From Egibacter rhizosphaerae (GTDB lineage Bacteria; Actinomycetota; Nitriliruptoria; Euzebyales; Egibacteraceae), in the NCBI RefSeq assembly GCF_004322855.1, contig NZ_CP036402.1, positions 2,294,001-2,358,000 on the forward strand: DNA of 64,000 nt. Reading direction: 5' to 3'. Under the pieces are notes generated by a model that saw only the letters and a list, made by a program, of their open reading frames with translations, searched no databases and had not been told where the DNA came from. Positions 11,609 through 21,568 of this stretch are shown here, piece after piece; within the stretch, counting starts at the first letter, position 1; every line of letters begins with the position of its first letter. The translations under genes were made by a program, and so were the position numbers.

Positions 11609-13092
11609 TGGCCACCCAGATCCGCCGGGTCGCGATCGTGTTCATGGTGCTGTTCGCGGCCGTCTTCGTGAACCTCAACGTCCTGGCGGTCGTCCAGGGC
11701 AGCTCCCTGCGGGAGGACCCGGAGAACACGCGCGGCCTCATCCGCGAGTACGCGGAGCCTCGCGGACTCATGATCGCCGGCGACGGCGAAGAGGCGATCT
11801 CGGTCGCCCGCAGCGAGGAGAGCGAGGGCGGCAGGCTGCGGTACCTGCGCCGGTATCCCGAGGGCGCGGCCTACGCGCACATCACCGGGTACCACTCGTT
11901 CATCTACGGGCGCTCCGAGCTCGAGAGCGCCTATACGGACGAGCTGTCCGGTCGCGGCGCGGACGCGTTCGCCCGCAACCTCGCGGACCTGCTCGCCGGA
12001 CAGGATCCGGTTGGTGACACGCTGCGCCTCGAGATCGAACCCTCGGTACAGGACGCGGCGATCGCCGGGCTCGAGGGGAACACCGGCGCCATCGTCGCGC
12101 TGGAGCCCGATACCGGGGCCGTGCTCGCGCTCGCCAGCTCTCCCTGGTACGACCCGAACCCGCTCGCCAGCCACGACGTCGAGGAAGTCACCAACGCGTG
12201 GGAGGAGTTGGAGGCCGACGAGTCGAACCCCGCGCTCAACCGGGCGGTGCGAGAGACCTACGCGCCGGGCTCCACGTTCAAGCTCGTGACCTCCGCCGCC
12301 GCGCTCGAGAACGGCTACAGCCTCTCGAGCACCTTCGACGATCCCACCGAGCTGGCCCTGCCACAGACCACGGCCACGATCTCGAACTTCGATGGCGGTC
12401 CCTGCGCCGACGGAAGTCAGATCACGCTCGAGGACGCCTTCGCCCAGTCCTGCAACACGACCTTCGGACAGCTGGGCCTCGATCTCGGCGGCGACACGCT
12501 GGTCGACACGGCCGAGGCGTTCGGCGTCGCGGGCGAACTCGACTTCGACCTGCCGGGGGTCGCGCCGAGCGCGTTCCCGCGCGAGGATCTGGACGAGCCG
12601 GGCGCGGCGCAGAGCGCGATCGGCCAACGTGACGTTCGGATGACCCCCTTGCAGATGGCGCTGATCTCGTCGGCCGCGGCGAACGACGGGGAGCTCATGC
12701 AGCCCCGTCTCGTGCGCCACGTCGAGGACGCCTCCGGCCGCGTCGTCGCCTCGCATGACCCCGAGCCCCTGCGGGTCGGCGGTCTCGTGGGCGGGAGCGC
12801 CCACCCGATCTCCTCCCAGACGGCGCGCGGCCTGCGCGCGATGATGGTCGCAGCGGTCGAGGACGGCACCGGCACCTCCGCGCAGATCGAGGGGGTCGAG
12901 GTGGGCGGCAAGACCGGCACGGCCGAGGGGGTGGAGGGCCGCGACCCGATCGCGTGGTTCACCGGCTTCGCCACCTCGGAGGACACCGACGTGGTGGTCG
13001 CGGTGGTGATCACCGACGGCGGTGCCGACGCCAGCGGTGGCACGGTCGCGGCCCCGGTCGCCCGGTCGGTGCTGGAAGCGGCCCTGCCCTAG
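11605..13092 (+). CDS. pbpA: PbpA, class B penicillin-binding protein (transpeptidase)
   Basis: 495 residues; two consecutive ATG codons (11605 and 11608) are possible starts, the first overlapping the ftsW stop. One N-terminal membrane helix (VAIVFMVLFAAVFVNLNVL) anchors an outer dimerisation domain and a transpeptidase domain with the three expected motifs: STFK (APGSTFKLVTS), SCN (AQSCNTTFG) and KTGT (GGKTGTAEG). It cross-links peptidoglycan made by the SEDS partner. In mycobacteria PbpA is itself a PknB substrate. Length is normal and nothing appears broken. Confidence 0.95.
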   Translation: MMATQIRRVAIVFMVLFAAVFVNLNVLAVVQGSSLREDPENTRGLIREYAEPRGLMIAGDGEEAISVARSEESEGGRLRYLRRYPEGAAYAHITGYHSFIYGRSELESAYTDELSGRGADAFARNLADLLAGQDPVGDTLRLEIEPSVQDAAIAGLEGNTGAIVALEPDTGAVLALASSPWYDPNPLASHDVEEVTNAWEELEADESNPALNRAVRETYAPGSTFKLVTSAAALENGYSLSSTFDDPTELALPQTTATISNFDGGPCADGSQITLEDAFAQSCNTTFGQLGLDLGGDTLVDTAEAFGVAGELDFDLPGVAPSAFPREDLDEPGAAQSAIGQRDVRMTPLQMALISSAAANDGELMQPRLVRHVEDASGRVVASHDPEPLRVGGLVGGSAHPISSQTARGLRAMMVAAVEDGTGTSAQIEGVEVGGKTGTAEGVEGRDPIAWFTGFATSEDTDVVVAVVITDGGADASGGTVAAPVARSVLEAALP

Positions 13093-13117
13093 GCGCTCGG
13101 GCACGAGCGAGGAGCAC

Positions 13118-15190
13118 ATGGACGACACGACGCGGGTGGATAGCGGCGGCACCGGCTTGTTGGGTGGCCGCTACGAGGTGCGCGGTCGGCTCGGTCACGG
13201 GGGGATGGCCGACGTCGTGCGCGCGCTCGACACCCAGCTCGACCGCGAGGTCGCCGTCAAGATCCTGCACGCGCGCTACGCCGAGGACCCCTCGTTCCTG
13301 GAACGTTTCCGACGGGAGGCGCAGGCCGCCGCCAGCCTCTCCCACCCGAACGTCGTCGCCGTCTACGACGCGGGGGAGCACGACTCCCGCCCTTTCATCG
13401 TCATGGAACTCGTGGAGGGCGAGAGCCTCTCGGCCATGCTGAACCACGAGCAGCCGTCGCTGGAGCGCGCCCTGCAGATCGGCGGTGACGCGGCCCTCGG
13501 CATCCACTACGCGCACGAGCGCGGCCTCATCCATCGCGACGTGAAGCCCGGCAACATCCTCGTGTCCGAGGACGGGCAGGTGAAGGTGACCGACTTCGGC
13601 ATCGCCCGCGCGGTGAATGCCGAGACCGTCACCCAGACCGCCAGCGTCTTCGGCACTGCCGCCTACATCGCGCCCGAGCAGGCCCAGGGCGGCCACGTCG
13701 ACCGCCGCACCGACGTCTACGCCATGGGCTGCGTGCTCTACGAGTTGCTGACGGGCCGACAGCCCTTCCTGGGCGACAGCGCCGTCTCGCTCGCCTACAT
13801 GCACGTCACCGCCGACCCGCCGTTGCCGTCCGAGGTGGCCCCCCACCTGCCCGAGGCGCTCGACACGGTGCTGCTGACCGCGCTCGCGAAGGACCCTGCC
13901 CAGCGTTACGCCACGGTGCGGGACCTGCACAGCGATCTGCAGCGCGTTGCCGCGGGCCTCCCGGTTGCCGCGATCCCGGAGGGCGGCGCGTGGGACGACG
14001 GCGGCACGACCGTGCTCCCTCCCGGCCCACCGGCGACGTACGAAGCGGAGCCCCCTCCCGACGACCCCCCGCCCCGCCGTGGTCTCGCGACCGCGATGAT
14101 CGTCCTGCTGATCCTCGCGGTCTTCGCGCTCGGGGCGGTGTTGCTCACGAACCTGCTCGCGGGCGGCGAGGACACCGTCATCGTGCCCGATGTGCTCGGC
14201 GAGGATCCCGAGTTCGCCGAGGAGACCCTCGAGAACGCCGGCTTCGAGGTCTCCCGCGAGCCCGACCGGATGACCAGCGAGGAGTACGAGGAGGGGACGG
14301 TTGCCGAGACCGACCCCGCGCCGCTCGACGAGGTAGCCGAGGGCACCGAGGTCATCCTCGTGATCTCCGCCGGGCCGGAGACCGCGGCCGTCCCCGAGAT
14401 CATCGGGGTCGAGGAGGAGGTCGCGGTCGACGCGATCGAGGACGCCGGGTTCACGGTTGGCGAGCGTACCGAGCGCGACGTCGAGGACGCCGAGGAGGGG
14501 GAGGTCGTCGACGCCCGTCCCGAGCCGGGCGAGGAGCACCGGCTCGGGGAGCCGGTCGACTACTGGGTCGCGGTGGGGCCCGATGTCGTCGCGGTCCCGA
14601 TGGTCGTCAACACCCCCGAGGACGAGGCCCGCGAGATGCTCGAGGGGGCCTGCGAGCCCGAGCCGTGCTTCACGGTCGAGGTCGAGTACGAACCCGACAA
14701 CCTCGTCGACGAGGACGACGTCATCCGCCAGAACCCCAGCGGCGGCACCGAGGCCGAGCCCGGCTCGACCGTCGAGATCGTCGTCTCCGAGGGTCCGGAC
14801 ACCGTCGAGCTCCCGGATGTGGAGAACCAGCCCGAGGCCCAGGCGATCGAGCGGCTCGAGGACGCCTGCGACCGCGACCCGTGCGTCGAGGTGGCCGTCA
14901 GCCGTGAGTTCTCGGCCAACACCGCGGAGGGTCGCGTAATCGAGCAGGATCCGCGTCCCAACAACTCGGTCGACATCGGCTCGGAGGTCTCGATCGTCGT
15001 GTCCCGCGGGGCCGAGGAGGAAGAGGACGACACCGAACCGGACGACAACAACGATACCGAACCGGACGACGAACCTGGCACGGATCCCGACGACGGTGAC
15101 GGGGACGACGGGGACGACGGGGACGACGGGGACGACGGGGACAACGAGAACAACGGGGATGGCGACGAGGAGGACGAGGAGGAGGGCTAA
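13118..15190 (+). CDS. pknB: PknB, PASTA-domain receptor Ser/Thr kinase
   Basis: 690 residues from the ATG after GAGGAG. The kinase domain has the glycine loop GHGGMAD, Lys48 in VAVKIL, HRDVKPGN with Asp141, DFG Asp159 and an activation loop ending GTAAYIAPEQ. A membrane helix (MIVLLILAVFALGAVLLTNL) leads to four outer PASTA repeats that should sense muropeptides or lipid II. Repeats 3 and 4 each carry a Cys pair (EGACEPEPC and EDACDRDPC) that may form disulfides. The protein ends in an acidic low-complexity tail of Asp-Gly and Glu. No pknA precedes it, unlike in Mycobacterium. Confidence 0.97.
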   Translation: MDDTTRVDSGGTGLLGGRYEVRGRLGHGGMADVVRALDTQLDREVAVKILHARYAEDPSFLERFRREAQAAASLSHPNVVAVYDAGEHDSRPFIVMELVEGESLSAMLNHEQPSLERALQIGGDAALGIHYAHERGLIHRDVKPGNILVSEDGQVKVTDFGIARAVNAETVTQTASVFGTAAYIAPEQAQGGHVDRRTDVYAMGCVLYELLTGRQPFLGDSAVSLAYMHVTADPPLPSEVAPHLPEALDTVLLTALAKDPAQRYATVRDLHSDLQRVAAGLPVAAIPEGGAWDDGGTTVLPPGPPATYEAEPPPDDPPPRRGLATAMIVLLILAVFALGAVLLTNLLAGGEDTVIVPDVLGEDPEFAEETLENAGFEVSREPDRMTSEEYEEGTVAETDPAPLDEVAEGTEVILVISAGPETAAVPEIIGVEEEVAVDAIEDAGFTVGERTERDVEDAEEGEVVDARPEPGEEHRLGEPVDYWVAVGPDVVAVPMVVNTPEDEAREMLEGACEPEPCFTVEVEYEPDNLVDEDDVIRQNPSGGTEAEPGSTVEIVVSEGPDTVELPDVENQPEAQAIERLEDACDRDPCVEVAVSREFSANTAEGRVIEQDPRPNNSVDIGSEVSIVVSRGAEEEEDDTEPDDNNDTEPDDEPGTDPDDGDGDDGDDGDDGDDGDNENNGDGDEEDEEEG
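15101..15145 (+). repeat. 9-bp tandem repeat encoding the PknB acidic tail
   Basis: The unit GGGGACGAC occurs four times exactly and a fifth time as GGGGACAAC. It encodes a Gly-Asp-Asp repeat at the outer C-terminus of PknB. Replication slippage would change the length in steps of three residues without breaking the frame. Confidence 0.85.
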
Positions 15191-15209: not shown

Positions 15210-15812
15210 TCACGCGGGGACCGGCGGCGAGGGCTCGAGACTGTCGAGGAAGTTGCCGAGCAGGGACATCCCCGCGCCGGTCAGGATCGACTCGGGGTGG
15301 AACTGGACCCCCTCGACCGCGAGGCGGCGGTGCCGTAGTCCCATCACCACGCCGCTGTCGTCGTCGGTCGTGGCGGTCACCTCGAGCTCGTCGGGCATCG
15401 TCGCCGGATCGATGACGAGCGAGTGGTAGCGGGTGGCCTCGAACGGTTGCGGCAGGCCGGCGAAGACGCCGCGTCCGTCGTGGCGGATGTGGGACGTCTT
15501 GCCGTGGAAGAGTGCGGGCGCGCGCACCACCGGTCCGCCGTAGACCTGCCCGATGCACTGGTGTCCGAGGCACACGCCCAGCAGCGGCACGCGTCCGGCG
15601 AAGACGCGGATCGTCTCGTTGGAGAGCCCGGCGTCGTCGGGGGTGCCCGGACCGGGCGAGATGACGATGCCGTCCGGCGGATCGGCCTCCAGGTCGGCGA
15701 GGGCGAACGCATCGTGGCGGGCCACCTCGACCTCGGCGCCGAGCTCGCCGAGCTCCTGCGCGAGGTTGTAGGTGAAGCTGTCGTAGTTGTCGATCAAAAA
15801 GACCCGCGCCAT
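15210..15812 (-). CDS. pabA: Aminodeoxychorismate/anthranilate synthase amidotransferase subunit
   Basis: 200 residues of the class I glutamine amidotransferase family. The N-terminus FLIDNYDSFTYNLAQELG, the oxyanion motif ISPGPGTPDDAG, the nucleophile Cys in GVCLGHQC and the His-Glu pair in GVQFHPESI are all present. The subunit releases ammonia from glutamine for a PabB- or TrpE-type chorismate-binding subunit, in folate or tryptophan synthesis. In actinobacteria a gene of this type lies next to pknB, and TrpG and PabA are often interchangeable, so the symbol is provisional. It is convergent with pknB, with 19 bp between the stop codons. Confidence 0.93.
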   Translation of the reverse strand: MARVFLIDNYDSFTYNLAQELGELGAEVEVARHDAFALADLEADPPDGIVISPGPGTPDDAGLSNETIRVFAGRVPLLGVCLGHQCIGQVYGGPVVRAPALFHGKTSHIRHDGRGVFAGLPQPFEATRYHSLVIDPATMPDELEVTATTDDDSGVVMGLRHRRLAVEGVQFHPESILTGAGMSLLGNFLDSLEPSPPVPA

Positions 15813-15821
15813 GCCGACATT

Positions 15822-17198
15822 CTAGGCGGTCGCGGGTGGGGGCGCCGGCCAGAGGAACCCCTCGGCGTCGCGGACGGCCCATCGACCCGTCCGCAACCAG
15901 CCGTCCCGCAGTACCGCCCGAGTCTGCTCGGGCCGGCCCCAGTATCCACGCAGCAGCTGGGGGCCGGCCACCTCGAGTCGGCCCGTCGCCCCGTCCGCGG
16001 CCGGTCGCTCGTCCTCGTCGACGACGCGCGCGGCGACGTCGGGCAAAGGGAGCCCGTACGAACCCGCCCGCGCGCGACCGTACACCGGGTCGGCGATGGC
16101 GAGGCCGGCGAGCTCCGGTAGGGCGAGGCCGCCGCGCAGCCGGACCCCGCCCCGCGAGTGCGCGCGCTCGACCGCGGCGGGCGCGACCGGCCCATCGACC
16201 AGCGCGACCCGCAGGGAGGTGAGCTCGGCGCGGCCACCCAGACCCGCGTCCGCCGCGGGTGGGTCGTGGTCGCCGCGGTCGCCCGCCAGTCGCGCCACGC
16301 CGCCCACGGCGAGGGTTGCCTGCTGGTCACCGACGTCACGGTCGATGCGGGTCGCCTCGGCGGACGGGAAACCCATGCGGGCGGCGGAGAGCAGCGAGAG
16401 GCCGAGGCCCCCGGACAACCAGAACCCGCTCCATGGGTCGGCGGCCAGCAGCACCCGTTCGCGGCCGGCCTGCACGTCGGGGATCCACAGGCGGGCTTGG
16501 AAGCTCGCCACCACGGCCGCATCGTGGGTGAGCGCGACCCCCCGGTCCCACGCGCTGACCGGCACCCGGTCCGCGGTCGTTCCCGCGCCCCACGTGCCCA
16601 CCACGGCCAGCAGGTCGCCGGCGGGATCCACCGGTGCCTGGCGAGCGGCCGGTGGGCTCCGGCGGATCAGTTCCTTGAGGCCGACAGCGCCGTCACGCCG
16701 GGCCTGCCGCGGCAAGCGGCCCCGCAACGTACGGGGGAAGGCGGCGTAGGCGACCGGGCTGGTCACGAGCAGATGGACGAGGGTCGGCAGCCGCCCCTTG
16801 AGCTGCGCGACGGTGGCGTAGGCCCGATCCTCGCACACGAGGGCCCGGCACCCCGTGTCGGTCACGGCGTGCGCGATTGGTTCGGGTGAGATATCGAAGG
16901 GCAATGGCACCAGCACCGCTCCGAGGCGCGCGGCGGCGAGGGTGACGATGACCACCTGTGGGCTCGGCGAGAGGAGCGAGGCCAAGCGGTCGCCCTGCGT
17001 GATCCCCAGGTCCGCGAGCCCGGCGGCGCAGCGGTCCACCTGGTCCAGCAGCTCGCGGTACGTCAGCGTGTGGCCGCGGAACGCCACTGCCTCGTGGCTC
17101 GGGAAGTCGTGTGCGGCGTCGTCGAGCAGCCGGGTGAACGGCACCGCCGGGTACGGATAGGTGGCCGGGACACCGGTCGGTCGGGCCGAGGGGCTCAC
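15822..17198 (-). CDS. Degenerate AMP-binding (acyl-CoA synthetase-like) protein, probably inactive as an adenylase
   Basis: 458 residues from GTG 17196-17198, which overlaps the stop of the small membrane gene (GTGA). The N-terminal fold is clearly that of an acyl-CoA/fatty-acid ligase (FTRLLDDAAHDFPSHEAVAF, LTYRELLDQVDRCAAGLADL, LAAARLGAVLVPLPFDISP). Key adenylation motifs are altered. The ATP loop, normally TSGTTGxPKG, reads GTWGAGTTADRVPVSAWDRG at about residues 201-220; no YGxTE motif is found; TGD near the end reads TGR (TGRWAVRDAEGFLW). The protein then stops, lacking the roughly 100-residue C-terminal lid with the catalytic Lys. Ligand binding without catalysis is the likeliest role. 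It forms a coupled unit with the sortase. Confidence 0.8.
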   Translation of the reverse strand: MSPSARPTGVPATYPYPAVPFTRLLDDAAHDFPSHEAVAFRGHTLTYRELLDQVDRCAAGLADLGITQGDRLASLLSPSPQVVIVTLAAARLGAVLVPLPFDISPEPIAHAVTDTGCRALVCEDRAYATVAQLKGRLPTLVHLLVTSPVAYAAFPRTLRGRLPRQARRDGAVGLKELIRRSPPAARQAPVDPAGDLLAVVGTWGAGTTADRVPVSAWDRGVALTHDAAVVASFQARLWIPDVQAGRERVLLAADPWSGFWLSGGLGLSLLSAARMGFPSAEATRIDRDVGDQQATLAVGGVARLAGDRGDHDPPAADAGLGGRAELTSLRVALVDGPVAPAAVERAHSRGGVRLRGGLALPELAGLAIADPVYGRARAGSYGLPLPDVAARVVDEDERPAADGATGRLEVAGPQLLRGYWGRPEQTRAVLRDGWLRTGRWAVRDAEGFLWPAPPPATA

Positions 17199-17350
17199 CA
17201 GCGGTACAGCGCCCCGCCGACGCCGGCGAGCCCGAGGACGGGGTCGTCGATCAAGGTGCGATCGACCCACGGGAACACGACGGTGAACAACACCCAGACC
17301 GCCACCGACACGACGAGCAGTCCGACGAGCACCCGCACGATCCGGCTCAC
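17195..17350 (-). CDS. 51-residue single-helix membrane protein between sortase and AMP-binding gene
   Basis: Starts at GTG 17348-17350 inside the sortase stop (GTGA) and ends with TGA inside the next GTG start. Both junctions are four-base overlaps, which strongly supports translation. The peptide begins with a basic residue pair, then one membrane helix (VLVGLLVVSVAVWVLFTVVF), then a short outer or inner tail with WVDRTLIDDPVLGLAGVGG. No family is recognised. The strict overlap with a sortase and a degenerate AMP-binding protein suggests the three products act together or must be made in equal amounts. Confidence 0.75.
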   Translation of the reverse strand: MSRIVRVLVGLLVVSVAVWVLFTVVFPWVDRTLIDDPVLGLAGVGGALYRW

Positions 17351-18141
17351 GGGACCAGCTCACCGAAGGTCACGAGGCGTTCACGGTCGGAGTACACCGG
17401 GTGGCAGGTCGTCAACGTGATGGTGCCCGCGCCGAGGCCGACCGGGTCGTCGTCGAGCACCCACGTCTCGGTGGGGAGCACGATCCGTGATTCGCTGAAC
17501 TCGTACTCATGGCGCTCTCCGTCGAGGTCCCACACGTGAATGCGGTCGCCCTCCCGCAGTTCGTCGAGGCGGCGGAAGGGCGCGCTGTAGGTCACACGGT
17601 GACCGGCGACGGCGAAGTTGCTGTCGTCGCCGGGGTCGGCGGTGCTGGGATAGTGCCCCGGCCCGTTGCGGAGGTCGGCGACGGTGACGTCACCGAGGAC
17701 CGCGACCGGTTCGTCGAGGACCGGCGGCTCGTCGCTGCCGGGTCGCTCGAACGCGATGACCGCGACGGCGCTGGCGCCACCGGCGACGTCGGGCGCCTCG
17801 ACCTCCCCACCTGCCTCAGCGACGGTCGGCGGGTCGCGGTCGCCAGCCTCCTCGGCGCTGTCCCCGTCGGTCGTGGCATCGTCCCCGCCGCTGTCGCCGG
17901 TACCCGAGGACCCCTCTGGATCGAGGGCGCCGACGCCGGCTTCCCACTGCTCCAACAGATCGGTCTGGGCCCGGTCGGTCTCGAGACCGGTGAACCACAG
18001 GGCGTACACGACGTAGAGCAGGATCACCGCCCCGGCGATCGTGAGGGTCCACCCGATGCCCCGCAACGCGAGCAAGGGCCATGACCTCCTGTGGCGCGGA
18101 GCCGGCACCGAGCGGGCCTCGGGGGCCGCGGTCGCGGTCAT
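17347..18141 (-). CDS. srtE: Class E sortase
   Basis: 264 residues from the ATG at 18139-18141; an open frame continues upstream but is Arg/Ser-rich. A basic N-terminus and one membrane helix (residues 28-50) precede an Asp/Gly/Ser-rich linker and a sortase domain. The catalytic His is in FAVAGHRVTYS, the Cys in TLTTCHPVYS (about residue 246), and an Arg follows in SDRERLV; TLTTCHP is typical of class E. These enzymes attach proteins bearing a LAXTG-type signal to the wall of high-GC Gram-positives, so its substrates lie elsewhere in the genome. It shares overlapping ends with the small membrane gene downstream. Confidence 0.93.
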   Translation of the reverse strand: MTATAAPEARSVPAPRHRRSWPLLALRGIGWTLTIAGAVILLYVVYALWFTGLETDRAQTDLLEQWEAGVGALDPEGSSGTGDSGGDDATTDGDSAEEAGDRDPPTVAEAGGEVEAPDVAGGASAVAVIAFERPGSDEPPVLDEPVAVLGDVTVADLRNGPGHYPSTADPGDDSNFAVAGHRVTYSAPFRRLDELREGDRIHVWDLDGERHEYEFSESRIVLPTETWVLDDDPVGLGAGTITLTTCHPVYSDRERLVTFGELVP

Positions 18142-18320: not shown

Positions 18321-18545
18321 GTGCCGAAATCACGCTCCCGCCGCACACGCTCGCAACCACCGCCACGACGCAAGCCCCCGCGCAGCCCGAAGTGGGTGCC
18401 GCGCCTGGGGCTCGGCCTCATCTTCGGGGGCGTCGCGCTGATCGTCGTCAGCTTCGTGTTCGAGCTGCCGGGCGGAGGCATCGACCTGCTGCTGGGGTTC
18501 GCCCTCATGGCCGGTGGGCTGATCGCGCTGAGCTACTACCGCTGA
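18321..18545 (+). CDS. crgA: CrgA, cell-division inhibitor/divisome membrane protein
   Basis: 74 residues from GTG 18321-18323, behind a GAGGGGG site. A highly basic N-terminus (MPKSRSRRTRSQPPPRRKPP) precedes two membrane helices (GLGLIFGGVALIVVSFVF and GIDLLLGFALMAGGLIAL) ending in SYYR, the layout of the CrgA family, although family members are usually a little longer. CrgA binds FtsZ, FtsI and FtsQ in actinobacteria and times septum formation. It is divergent from the sortase gene, as in related genomes. Confidence 0.92.
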   Translation: MPKSRSRRTRSQPPPRRKPPRSPKWVPRLGLGLIFGGVALIVVSFVFELPGGGIDLLLGFALMAGGLIALSYYR

Positions 18546-18905: not shown

Positions 18906-19250
18906 TCACGCCGAGGGATCCGAGGCATCTCGAGGTATTTCGCGATGTTCGGTCATGCGCTCCCCACAGTGTCGCGGGGGGCTCTGCGATCCGCGCACGA
19001 GGAGCAGCACCTCGGCCCCGCACGGCTGGCAGGAGTACACGGTTCTCTCCATCGCCTGGTCCACCGGCTGGGGATCCTCGTCGACCGGGACGGTGGCACC
19101 CAGCTGCCCGAACGTGGCGAACCCCACCCGCAGGATCGCCAACCCGAGCAGCGGTCCGAGCACGTAGGCCGCCGGAACGTCCGTCGCGAGCGCCACCACC
19201 GCCGCCAACGCGACGACGCCCCACAGAACGACCCTGCCCCGGACGGCCAT
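18906..19250 (-). CDS. Small membrane protein with zinc-ribbon-like Cys motif
   Basis: 114 residues from ATG 19248-19250, four bases after the thiolase stop codon. Two hydrophobic helices (VVLWGVVALAAVVALATDVP and AAYVLGPLLGLAILRVGF) are followed by a soluble tail with CQPCGAEVLLLVRG and HCGERM, a spacing that could bind one zinc ion through three Cys and a His. The product is presumably a membrane-bound zinc-ribbon protein of unknown role. Its closeness to the thiolase gene implies co-transcription, but no functional link is evident. Confidence 0.7.
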   Translation of the reverse strand: MAVRGRVVLWGVVALAAVVALATDVPAAYVLGPLLGLAILRVGFATFGQLGATVPVDEDPQPVDQAMERTVYSCQPCGAEVLLLVRGSQSPPRHCGERMTEHREIPRDASDPSA

Positions 19251-19254
19251 GGGC

Positions 19255-20445
19255 TCAGCCGAGCCGTTCGATGATCGTGGCGTTGGCCATGCCCCCGCCC
19301 TCGCACATCGTCTGGAGTCCGTAGCGACCCCCGCCCTGCTCGAGACCATGGCAGAGGGTCGTGAGCAGCCGCGCGCCACTCGCGCCCAATGGATGTCCCA
19401 GCGCGATGGCGCCACCCCGCGGGTTGACGCGCCCGGGATCGACGTCCAACTCGCGCTGCCACGCCAGCACGACGCTGGCGAACGCCTCGTTCACCTCGAT
19501 CTGCTCCATCTCGTCGATGTCCAGGCCGCTGCGCTCCAGGACCCGGCGGGTCGAGGGGATCGGCCCGGACAACATGGTGACCGGGTCGACACCCGCGAGC
19601 GCGAACGTGTGGAAGCGCCAGCGCGGCACGAACCCGAGTCGCTCCGCGGTCTCGCGCTCCATGATCAGCGCCGCCGCGGCGCCGTCGGAGATCTGGCTCG
19701 CGTTCCCGGCGGTCACGATCCACGGGAGGCCGGGGTGCGCAGCCGCGACCCGCTCCTCGTAGAAGGCGGGCTCGAGCTCGGCCAGGGCCTCGAGCGAGGT
19801 CTCGCGACGGATCCCCTCGTCTGCCCTGACCTCGCGGACCTGGCCATCCGCACCGGTGACCTTGACCGGCAGGATCTCGTCGTCGAAGTGTCCGCCGTCG
19901 GCGGCGGCCGCGGCCAGCTGGTGCGAGCGCAGCGCGTACTCATCGGCCTCCTCGCGCGTGACACCCCAACGTTGCGCCACGATCTCGGCGCTGATGCCCT
20001 GGTGGACGAGGCCGCCGTCATAGCGGGCACTCATCTGCTCGCCGTACGGGTTCGCGCCCGCGACGTTGCTCATCATCGGCACGCGGGTCATCGACTCCAC
20101 GCCGCAGGCGATCGTGATGTCGTACACGCCGGCGAGCACGCCCTGAGCAGCGAAGTGCGCGGCCTGCTGGGACGAGCCACACTGCCGATCGACCGTGGTC
20201 GCCGGCACCGACTCCGGCAGACCCGCGCCGAGCCACCCGTGACGGGTCACGTTGAGCGACTGCTCGCCCGCCTGGCCGACGCAGCCGCCGATGACGTCAT
20301 CGACGCGCTCGGGCTCCAAGCCGGTCCGCTCGACCAGCTGCCCGAGGACCTGCGCGAGCAGGTCGGCGGGGTGCTCGCTCACGAGGGCGCCCTTGCGCCG
20401 ACCGGTGGGAACGCGCAGGGCCTCGACGATGACCGCATCCCGCAT
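19255..20445 (-). CDS. Acetyl-CoA acetyltransferase (thiolase)
   Basis: 396 residues from ATG 20443-20445 behind GGAGAAGGAGG. It has the full set of thiolase motifs: the acyl-accepting Cys in VDRQCGSSQQAA, the NEAFASVVLAW motif, the His in GGAIALGHPLGASGAR, and the second catalytic Cys in TMCEGGGMANA. Thiolases either condense two acetyl-CoA molecules or cleave 3-ketoacyl-CoA in beta-oxidation. Sequence alone does not separate the two, although the N-terminus (DAVIVEALRVPTGRRKGAL) resembles fatty-acid-degradation types. The soluble enzyme is followed directly by the small zinc-ribbon membrane gene. Confidence 0.94.
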   Translation of the reverse strand: MRDAVIVEALRVPTGRRKGALVSEHPADLLAQVLGQLVERTGLEPERVDDVIGGCVGQAGEQSLNVTRHGWLGAGLPESVPATTVDRQCGSSQQAAHFAAQGVLAGVYDITIACGVESMTRVPMMSNVAGANPYGEQMSARYDGGLVHQGISAEIVAQRWGVTREEADEYALRSHQLAAAAADGGHFDDEILPVKVTGADGQVREVRADEGIRRETSLEALAELEPAFYEERVAAAHPGLPWIVTAGNASQISDGAAAALIMERETAERLGFVPRWRFHTFALAGVDPVTMLSGPIPSTRRVLERSGLDIDEMEQIEVNEAFASVVLAWQRELDVDPGRVNPRGGAIALGHPLGASGARLLTTLCHGLEQGGGRYGLQTMCEGGGMANATIIERLG

Positions 20446-20683
20446 GGTGGCCTCCTTCTCCGCGCTCGGCGGGCTCGCCAAGGGACGGGGGGTCACCAGG
20501 GTACGTGGCGCGGCCGATCAACGGGAACCCACCCCGGGGGAACCCGCCGCTCATGGGGTCAGCCTCGGTCCGCCCCGTCGGTGGCTCACCCGTCGCGGTC
20601 CCGCCGATCCGCGACTCGGAGCCGGCTCGGCCCGTACCGAGGGTGTCACGCGCACGGGCCGGCCGGAGGCTCCAACCCGGGCG

Positions 20684-21568
20684 CTACCCGCCGGCGACTG
20701 CGGGACCCGGCCGCGGTTGGGGCGCGGGCGGTGTCGCCACGCCGCGCGCGGCACCGAACGCCAGCATCTCGAACCGCACGACCGCTGCGGCGCTGAGCAC
20801 GAGCACGCCGAGCGCCGCCCACAGCGGAAGTGCCGACGCTTGTCCCGGCATGACCAGCGAGGCCACTCCGAGGTAGGCAGCAGCCATCGCTCCCAGCCAC
20901 AACGGCAACCGCCCCCCGGGCAGCCTGGCCGCGCCGAGTGCGACACCGAACGCCGCCAGCAGCCCCGTCAGGGCCATCAATGTCCAGTGAGCCAACTGGG
21001 TGTGCGGGTCGGTGGCGCTCAGCTGCAGCCAGATCACCGACTGTTGGACCGCATAGAGCACCGCCAAGAGCACCCCAGCGCTGCCGATTCCGCCCAGGAT
21101 CGGATCGAGTCGCCCCATTGGCCGGAACGCCCCTCGCAGTCCCGGAACCAGTGCGAGCAGCGCGATCGTGAGGACGCCCGCGACGACCAACGGCCCGGGC
21201 CCGGCGTCCGCGAGGATCACCGGGCTGGCCAGCACCCTCAGCACCCCGGCGGCGACCACCGCGGCCACGAAGACGGCCACCGCCGGGCGGGGAGCCGGAC
21301 GGTAGAGCAACGCCAGGAGCGGCACGTACAACATGACGACCCACACTCCGTTGAACAGCCCGTGCAGCTGATGGATCGCCTCCGGACCCTCCACCGTCCA
21401 CGCTGTGACCAACATTGGACCCTGGAACAGCGCCGGTGGAACGTGCGCCAGCCCCAGCGCGACGATCACGACCACCAACGCGACCGCTCGTGCCACCGCG
21501 CCTTTCGACGCGGGTCGATCGCCCAGCCAACCGCCAAACCGCGTTCCCGCGGTCGGTTCGTTCATCAC
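20684..21568 (-). CDS. Polytopic membrane protein of unknown function
   Basis: 294 residues with about eight predicted helices, for example AVALVVVIVALGLAHVPPAL, GVWVVMLYVPLLALLY, VAVFVAAVVAAGVLRVLA and LPLWAALGVLVLSAAAVVRF. Conserved-looking polar loops include EAIHQLHGLFNGVW, with two His that could ligate haem or metal. Two adjacent ATG codons (21566-21568 and 21563-21565) are possible starts behind GAGAGGA. No family is recognised with confidence. It stands alone between the thiolase and the tRNA-Ala gene. Confidence 0.7.
   Translation of the reverse strand: MMNEPTAGTRFGGWLGDRPASKGAVARAVALVVVIVALGLAHVPPALFQGPMLVTAWTVEGPEAIHQLHGLFNGVWVVMLYVPLLALLYRPAPRPAVAVFVAAVVAAGVLRVLASPVILADAGPGPLVVAGVLTIALLALVPGLRGAFRPMGRLDPILGGIGSAGVLLAVLYAVQQSVIWLQLSATDPHTQLAHWTLMALTGLLAAFGVALGAARLPGGRLPLWLGAMAAAYLGVASLVMPGQASALPLWAALGVLVLSAAAVVRFEMLAFGAARGVATPPAPQPRPGPAVAGG

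Follow-up and report, generated by a model that had tools for sequence, protein, structure and literature searches.

A class E-type sortase gene with a membrane-microprotein neighbour and a ligase-derived pseudoenzyme gene downstream in Egibacter rhizosphaerae

Class E sortases are actinobacterial enzymes that tie proteins to the cell wall. In the complete 4.64-Mb genome of Egibacter rhizosphaerae, the gene for such an enzyme overlaps that of a 51-residue membrane protein, which in turn overlaps the gene of an acyl-CoA-ligase-like protein, raising the question of which of the three belong together and what a ligase-like protein does beside a sortase. The window analysed here is the whole 64,000-nucleotide stretch from position 2,294,001 to 2,358,000 of contig NZ_CP036402.1, to which all coordinates below refer unless a contig is named. 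Our preferred reading, held at a probability of about 0.6, is that SrtE and the small protein form a dedicated pair, accompanied by a ligase-derived pseudoenzyme with a non-catalytic role. The features of the locus are as follows.

13022 to 15190, plus strand: pknB, PknB-type PASTA kinase, convergent from the downstream side
15210 to 15812, minus strand: pabA/trpG-type glutamine amidotransferase, first gene downstream of the AMP-binding gene
15822 to 17198, minus strand: acyl-CoA-ligase-fold pseudoenzyme, 458 residues, N-terminal domain only (PF00501, structure model)
15882 to 15890, minus strand: TGD changed to TGR, residues 437-439; the protein stops 19 residues on, where the lid would start
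16458 to 16502, minus strand: retained element FQARLWIPDVQAGRE, residues 233-247, consensus FQxRLWxPDxxAGxE (retention analysis)
16527 to 16598, minus strand: degenerate ATP-binding P-loop (A3), residues 201-224, reading GTWGAGTTADRVPVSAWDRGVALTH against YTGGTTGxxKGxxLTH
17100 to 17174, minus strand: retained N-terminal segment, residues 9-33, GVPxTYxYPxVPxTRLLDDAAxDFP (retention analysis)
17195 to 17198, minus strand: GTGA, stop of the small protein and start of the AMP-binding protein (from the ORF ends)
17195 to 17350, minus strand: 51-residue single-pass membrane microprotein with the motif LF..VFPWVD...DDP (hydropathy scan, alignment)
17347 to 17350, minus strand: GTGA, stop of srtE and start of the small protein, a 4-nt overlap common to 18 of 33 relatives
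17347 to 18141, minus strand: srtE, class E-type sortase, 264 residues (ATG at 18141, TGA at 17347; PF04203, NF033747)
18321 to 18545, plus strand: crgA, divergent, upstream of srtE

On the minus strand the genes are read in the order srtE (18141-17347), small protein (17350-17195), AMP-binding gene (17198-15822) and pabA (15812-15210), and the two GTGA overlaps reported by the initial annotation are seen at 17350-17347 and 17198-17195. Its placement of the locus between pabA and crgA is also borne out, with pknB as a further flanking gene. Within the class, where the relatives with named contigs are Euzebyales and Nitriliruptorales MAGs and some loci are partly hidden by contig ends, the three members lie within about 3 kb in the same order; this order is found again in about 40 genomes belonging to five families or more and is therefore beyond chance. 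The C-terminus of PknB (15040-15190) is an acidic low-complexity tail (GDDGDDGDDGDDGDN...DEEDEEEG). Past crgA, at 18953-20796, long overlapping open frames occupy both strands, none of them with a Pfam match, and PADLOC returned no match.

SrtE, the sole sortase of this genome, carries a sortase domain (PF04203, 96 bits), and its best class model is that of class E (NF033747), matched at 136 bits, below the cut-off of 160. All three catalytic residues (His180, Cys245 and Arg254) are in place and do not vary across the alignment. The protein is built of one N-terminal transmembrane segment (residues 33-53), a disordered acidic linker and the catalytic domain; correspondingly, the predicted structure (pLDDT 77) begins with a long helix at the N-terminus, which a disordered linker connects to a domain made up mostly of beta structure. 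Among the solved chains nearest to it by profile are SrtE1 (5cuw) and 5go5/5go6. A scan of the genome for LPXTG-type signals gave one plausible sorting tail, the remainder being mostly hydrophobic chance matches. The protein in question (L102, G000:C1:2613598-2613690) looks secreted, is rich in Asp, Glu and Pro, and ends in IAQTG, a transmembrane segment and a basic tail; judged by these features, it is a candidate substrate of the only sortase. Its IAQTG is the one candidate in this genome for the LAxTG-type signal that class E enzymes recognise.

The small protein has a single transmembrane segment (residues 7-25) preceded by basic residues, so its FPWVD...DDP end probably faces outward; that is, by the positive-inside rule the topology is probably N-in, C-out. 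Residues L21, F22, F26, P27 and P37 are invariant in the alignment, and V25 and W28 nearly so. Profile searches found the protein in 47 of the 61 class genomes, as a single copy with one exception (a second copy on a different contig, G053:C132:3033-3146, the sole case seen). In alignment A1 (27 rows) the L067 and L069 rows have slightly altered N-termini, whose effect on profile scores was judged trivial. In relatives its gene lies directly 3' of srtE, with a gap that never exceeds 55 nt, and a sortase adjoins it in each of the 47 genomes with the small protein, despite one to seven sortases per genome. Of 44 srtE loci across the phylum that have pabA downstream, 41 hold a small-protein homolog between the two, so that the small protein proves a constant neighbour of srtE at both scales. 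These phylum-wide loci include Actinomadura, Herbidospora, a Frankiaceae MAG and Acidimicrobiia, and homologs also follow srtE in the sortase-pabA interval of genomes of one genus (g57, probably Streptomyces). The Actinomycetes homologs start with MYxWIWRxLPG, and the Acidimicrobiia form reads LPGP...YDWIG; the Acidimicrobiia matches come from a small ORF set and are weak (E between about 1e-5 and 0.005), and their identification is partly positional. Neither the window protein nor the Streptomyces-type proteins have a significant match in Pfam and NCBIfam, and a literature search found no paper describing SrtE with a small partner. A published table (PMC6273383) lists SCO3852, a hypothetical protein of 69 residues adjoining the glutamine amidotransferase SCO3851, which from its position and size is probably the Streptomyces version. 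SrtE and the small protein are thus an ancient pair.

The third gene is less firmly attached. The initial annotation described the three genes as one strictly overlapping unit; their order is conserved in the class, but many relatives have intervening genes and four genomes (G002, G013, G015 and G046) have the srtE-small-protein pair but no ligase there, so the strict unit exists only in the sublineage of the window. As to whether the genes stand apart in relatives, which the initial annotation had set against its own model, they do so in part. The genes found between small protein and ligase are an opposite-strand gene resembling polyprenyl diphosphate synthase (L049, L055, L059, L060 and L067) and a YihY/BrkB-like membrane-protein gene (L033, L034 and L046), both labelled by eye from translations without a profile search. 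The overlap between small-protein and AMP-binding genes is limited to the window and a few relatives; the AMP-binding gene is near the small protein in about a dozen of 34 loci, and within 250 nt of pabA in 30 of 38. In view of this loose linkage, we take the module to consist of srtE and the small protein, and regard the ligase as an adjoining gene whose product has a separate, non-catalytic role.

The same data bear on the model of a three-protein complex, in which the pseudoenzyme would bind lipid or acyl groups and position SrtE or its substrate at the membrane. The strict GTGA overlaps of the window, the order kept within about 3 kb across the class and the retention of specific segments after catalysis was lost are all in its favour. 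However, in family f4 an opposite-strand gene separates the srtE-small-protein pair from the AMP-binding gene, which means that the three are not one transcript there; the ligase is dispensed with in the four genomes named above while the pair is kept; in other parts of the phylum pabA is mostly preceded by the small-protein gene alone; and the partners are predicted to lie on opposite sides of the membrane. Given the predicted topology, all that a cytosolic AMP-binding protein could reach of SrtE and the small protein is their short tails on the cytosolic side. We regard such a complex as unlikely.

It is less likely still that the pseudoenzyme serves PabA, or a folate or anthranilate step, rather than the sortase. 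The AMP-pabA spacing is tighter than that between the AMP-binding gene and the small protein, and other families have an intact ligase adjoining pabA, but pabA is a general fixture of the locus, with or without the ligase, and to our knowledge no biochemical link connects the pseudoenzyme with PabA or the folate/anthranilate step.

That the third protein is a pseudoenzyme at all, on which the preferred reading of a dedicated pair with a non-catalytic companion depends, follows from its motifs. As initially annotated, the acyl-CoA-ligase fold is kept (PF00501, 155 bits) and the ATP loop, TGD and lid are lost, as seen in the P-loop GTWGAGTTADRVPVSAWDRGVALTH, the change to TGR and the early stop. 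The functional ANL P-loop [ST]GTTGxPKG is not found in the window protein, and neither is the lid with its catalytic lysine. The AlphaFold model (pLDDT 90.4, pTM 0.92) gives a confident ANL N-terminal domain, with TM scores of 0.74-0.80 by query length against most of the best ANL structures. Forty-one syntenic orthologs of the class, the window included, were read. Six (L032, L033, L035, L037, L040 and L041) are intact, with complete P-loop, TGD and GK lid motifs; in nearly all others the P-loop is gone (L034 keeps most of it), the catalytic lysine is kept in no readable copy, and in several, the window among them, the lid is entirely missing. Scored against the intact consensus over 30 degenerate rows, retention was 13% for the P-loop, 16% for the hinge, 16% for the catalytic-Lys motif, 22% for A4 and 33% for A5. 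Four orthologs of one genus (g20; L047, L048, L051 and L052) combine a degenerate ligase with a long Pro/Glu/Asp-rich N-terminal extension, in frames of 943-1156 residues. A literature search found no paper on a bacterial acyl-CoA-ligase pseudoenzyme. A residual activity, with a carboxylic acid activated through some altered mechanism, is very improbable: the fold is intact in the model, and TGD and lid persist in part of the class, but among the 30 degenerate rows the catalytic lysine itself is kept in 0% and the P-loop lysine in 3%, the lid is gone from the window protein and several others, and the genome has other acyl-CoA-ligase genes.

Two segments show the opposite pattern. Over the same 30 rows, the FQxRLWxPDxxAGxE element is retained at 84% and the N-terminal segment at 78%, and the R, L, W, P, D and E of RLWxPD...E are invariant in all 41 class orthologs, RLWxPD being present even in the strongly diverged copies L225 and L226. 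Six of 12 positions around RLW are invariant, a figure matched by 21 of 20,000 shuffles. Intact outgroup ligases are looser over this stretch (RAWFPDADPGRE, RLWLSDIQPGKE, RAWFSNIVEGED), so the constraint in the class exceeds what catalysis requires. The element may align with the arginine-rich loop of FadD13 and R218 of luciferase, which we treat as a lead only; a literature search found no paper on the FadD13 lid loop. Close pairs of degenerate genes gave dN/dS of 0.16-0.40, a range like that of srtE and intact ligases; these values come from other degenerate orthologs, the window gene having no close relative. Motif loss and dN/dS together uphold the assignment as a pseudoenzyme, now one under purifying selection, and since catalysis is lost and the sequence is selected, the protein probably does another job. 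Neutral decay of a former ligase gene held only by its position was already disfavoured and is the least credible explanation, for long branches in the ligase tree, several lineages without lid and four genomes without the gene are outweighed by reading frames that stay open over about 430-1150 codons in over 30 genomes, by the dN/dS values and by the invariance of RLWxPD...E, L225 and L226 included.

The pseudoenzyme descends from an intact ligase of FadD type; six relatives, as well as other families of the phylum, still have such a ligase in this position. An intact ligase adjoins pabA in families f14 and f17 and lies between pabA and the small protein in a Frankiaceae MAG, so an intact ligase is probably the ancestral condition of this locus. 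In the ligase's own tree, rooted on intact outgroups, 29 degenerate rows group together (99/99), as expected if there had been a single loss besides that in L034; this grouping may be caused by long branches or relaxed constraint. On the tree of the neighbouring genes, however, degenerate rows are scattered among intact ones, and a single degenerate clade is rejected (p-AU 2e-7; 2e-4 without L034), which points to repeated loss. We conclude from these trees that catalysis was lost several times, with horizontal exchange and long-branch effects as the alternatives.

According to the preferred reading of a pair plus a pseudoenzyme, SrtE and the 51-residue protein would be made by coupled translation, and the FPW-D...DP end of the latter would lie, by its predicted topology, at the outer membrane face beside the sortase domain. 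Within the membrane, the small protein most likely attaches to SrtE, stabilising it or adjusting its substrate access. Downstream, a once intact FadD-type ligase would have lost ATP binding and catalysis and kept its folded N-terminal domain with the N-terminal and FQxRLWxPDxxAGxE segments for a non-catalytic role, most likely the binding, on the cytosolic side of this division and cell-wall locus, of either a protein partner or a ligand of acyl or lipid type. Against the partner role, the retained segments could serve folding alone; against the pair, conserved synteny at a division locus can persist without functional coupling. A bolder version, in which class E sortases are two-part membrane enzymes with a microprotein subunit and the repeatedly inactivated Nitriliruptoria ligase, with its conservation concentrated in FQxRLWxPD and the N-terminus, is a lipid-sensing or scaffolding regulator of the locus, is tentative and less likely than not. 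Should the microprotein prove to be a subunit of the sortase, a partner of SrtE has so far been overlooked in work on Streptomyces and other actinobacteria; a gene this short can escape annotation. At this one locus the ligase ranges from intact enzyme to pseudoenzyme, a natural series with several catalytic losses and one sequence element kept, in which a second role for an ANL protein can be tested directly.

Compared with known systems, the window SrtE shares the sortase domain, the His/Cys/Arg residues and the N-terminal transmembrane segment with class E sortases (SrtE1, 5cuw; 5go5/5go6 closest by profile), and the pabA/pknB neighbourhood with the Streptomyces class E sortase. Unlike these, it scores 136 bits against a cut-off of 160, is the lone sortase of its genome and has an overlapping small partner of which the papers found make no mention. 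The Streptomyces proteins of SCO3852 type (62-69 residues) are likewise encoded next to pabA, and the homologs in the sortase-pabA interval of genus g57 share the LF..VFPW core, whereas the SCO3852 type differs from the window protein in the MYxWIWRxLPG extension at its N-terminus and in its C-terminus. With ANL long-chain acyl-CoA ligases (NCBIfam PRK06710/PRK05605-type FadD; FadD13 and FadD5 of Mtb; 1ult of T. thermophilus), the ligase-like protein has in common the PF00501 fold, the N-terminal YPxGVP segment and intact orthologs at the equivalent place; it differs from them in lacking a functional P-loop, the catalytic lysine and the C-terminal lid, and in reading TGR where they have TGD.
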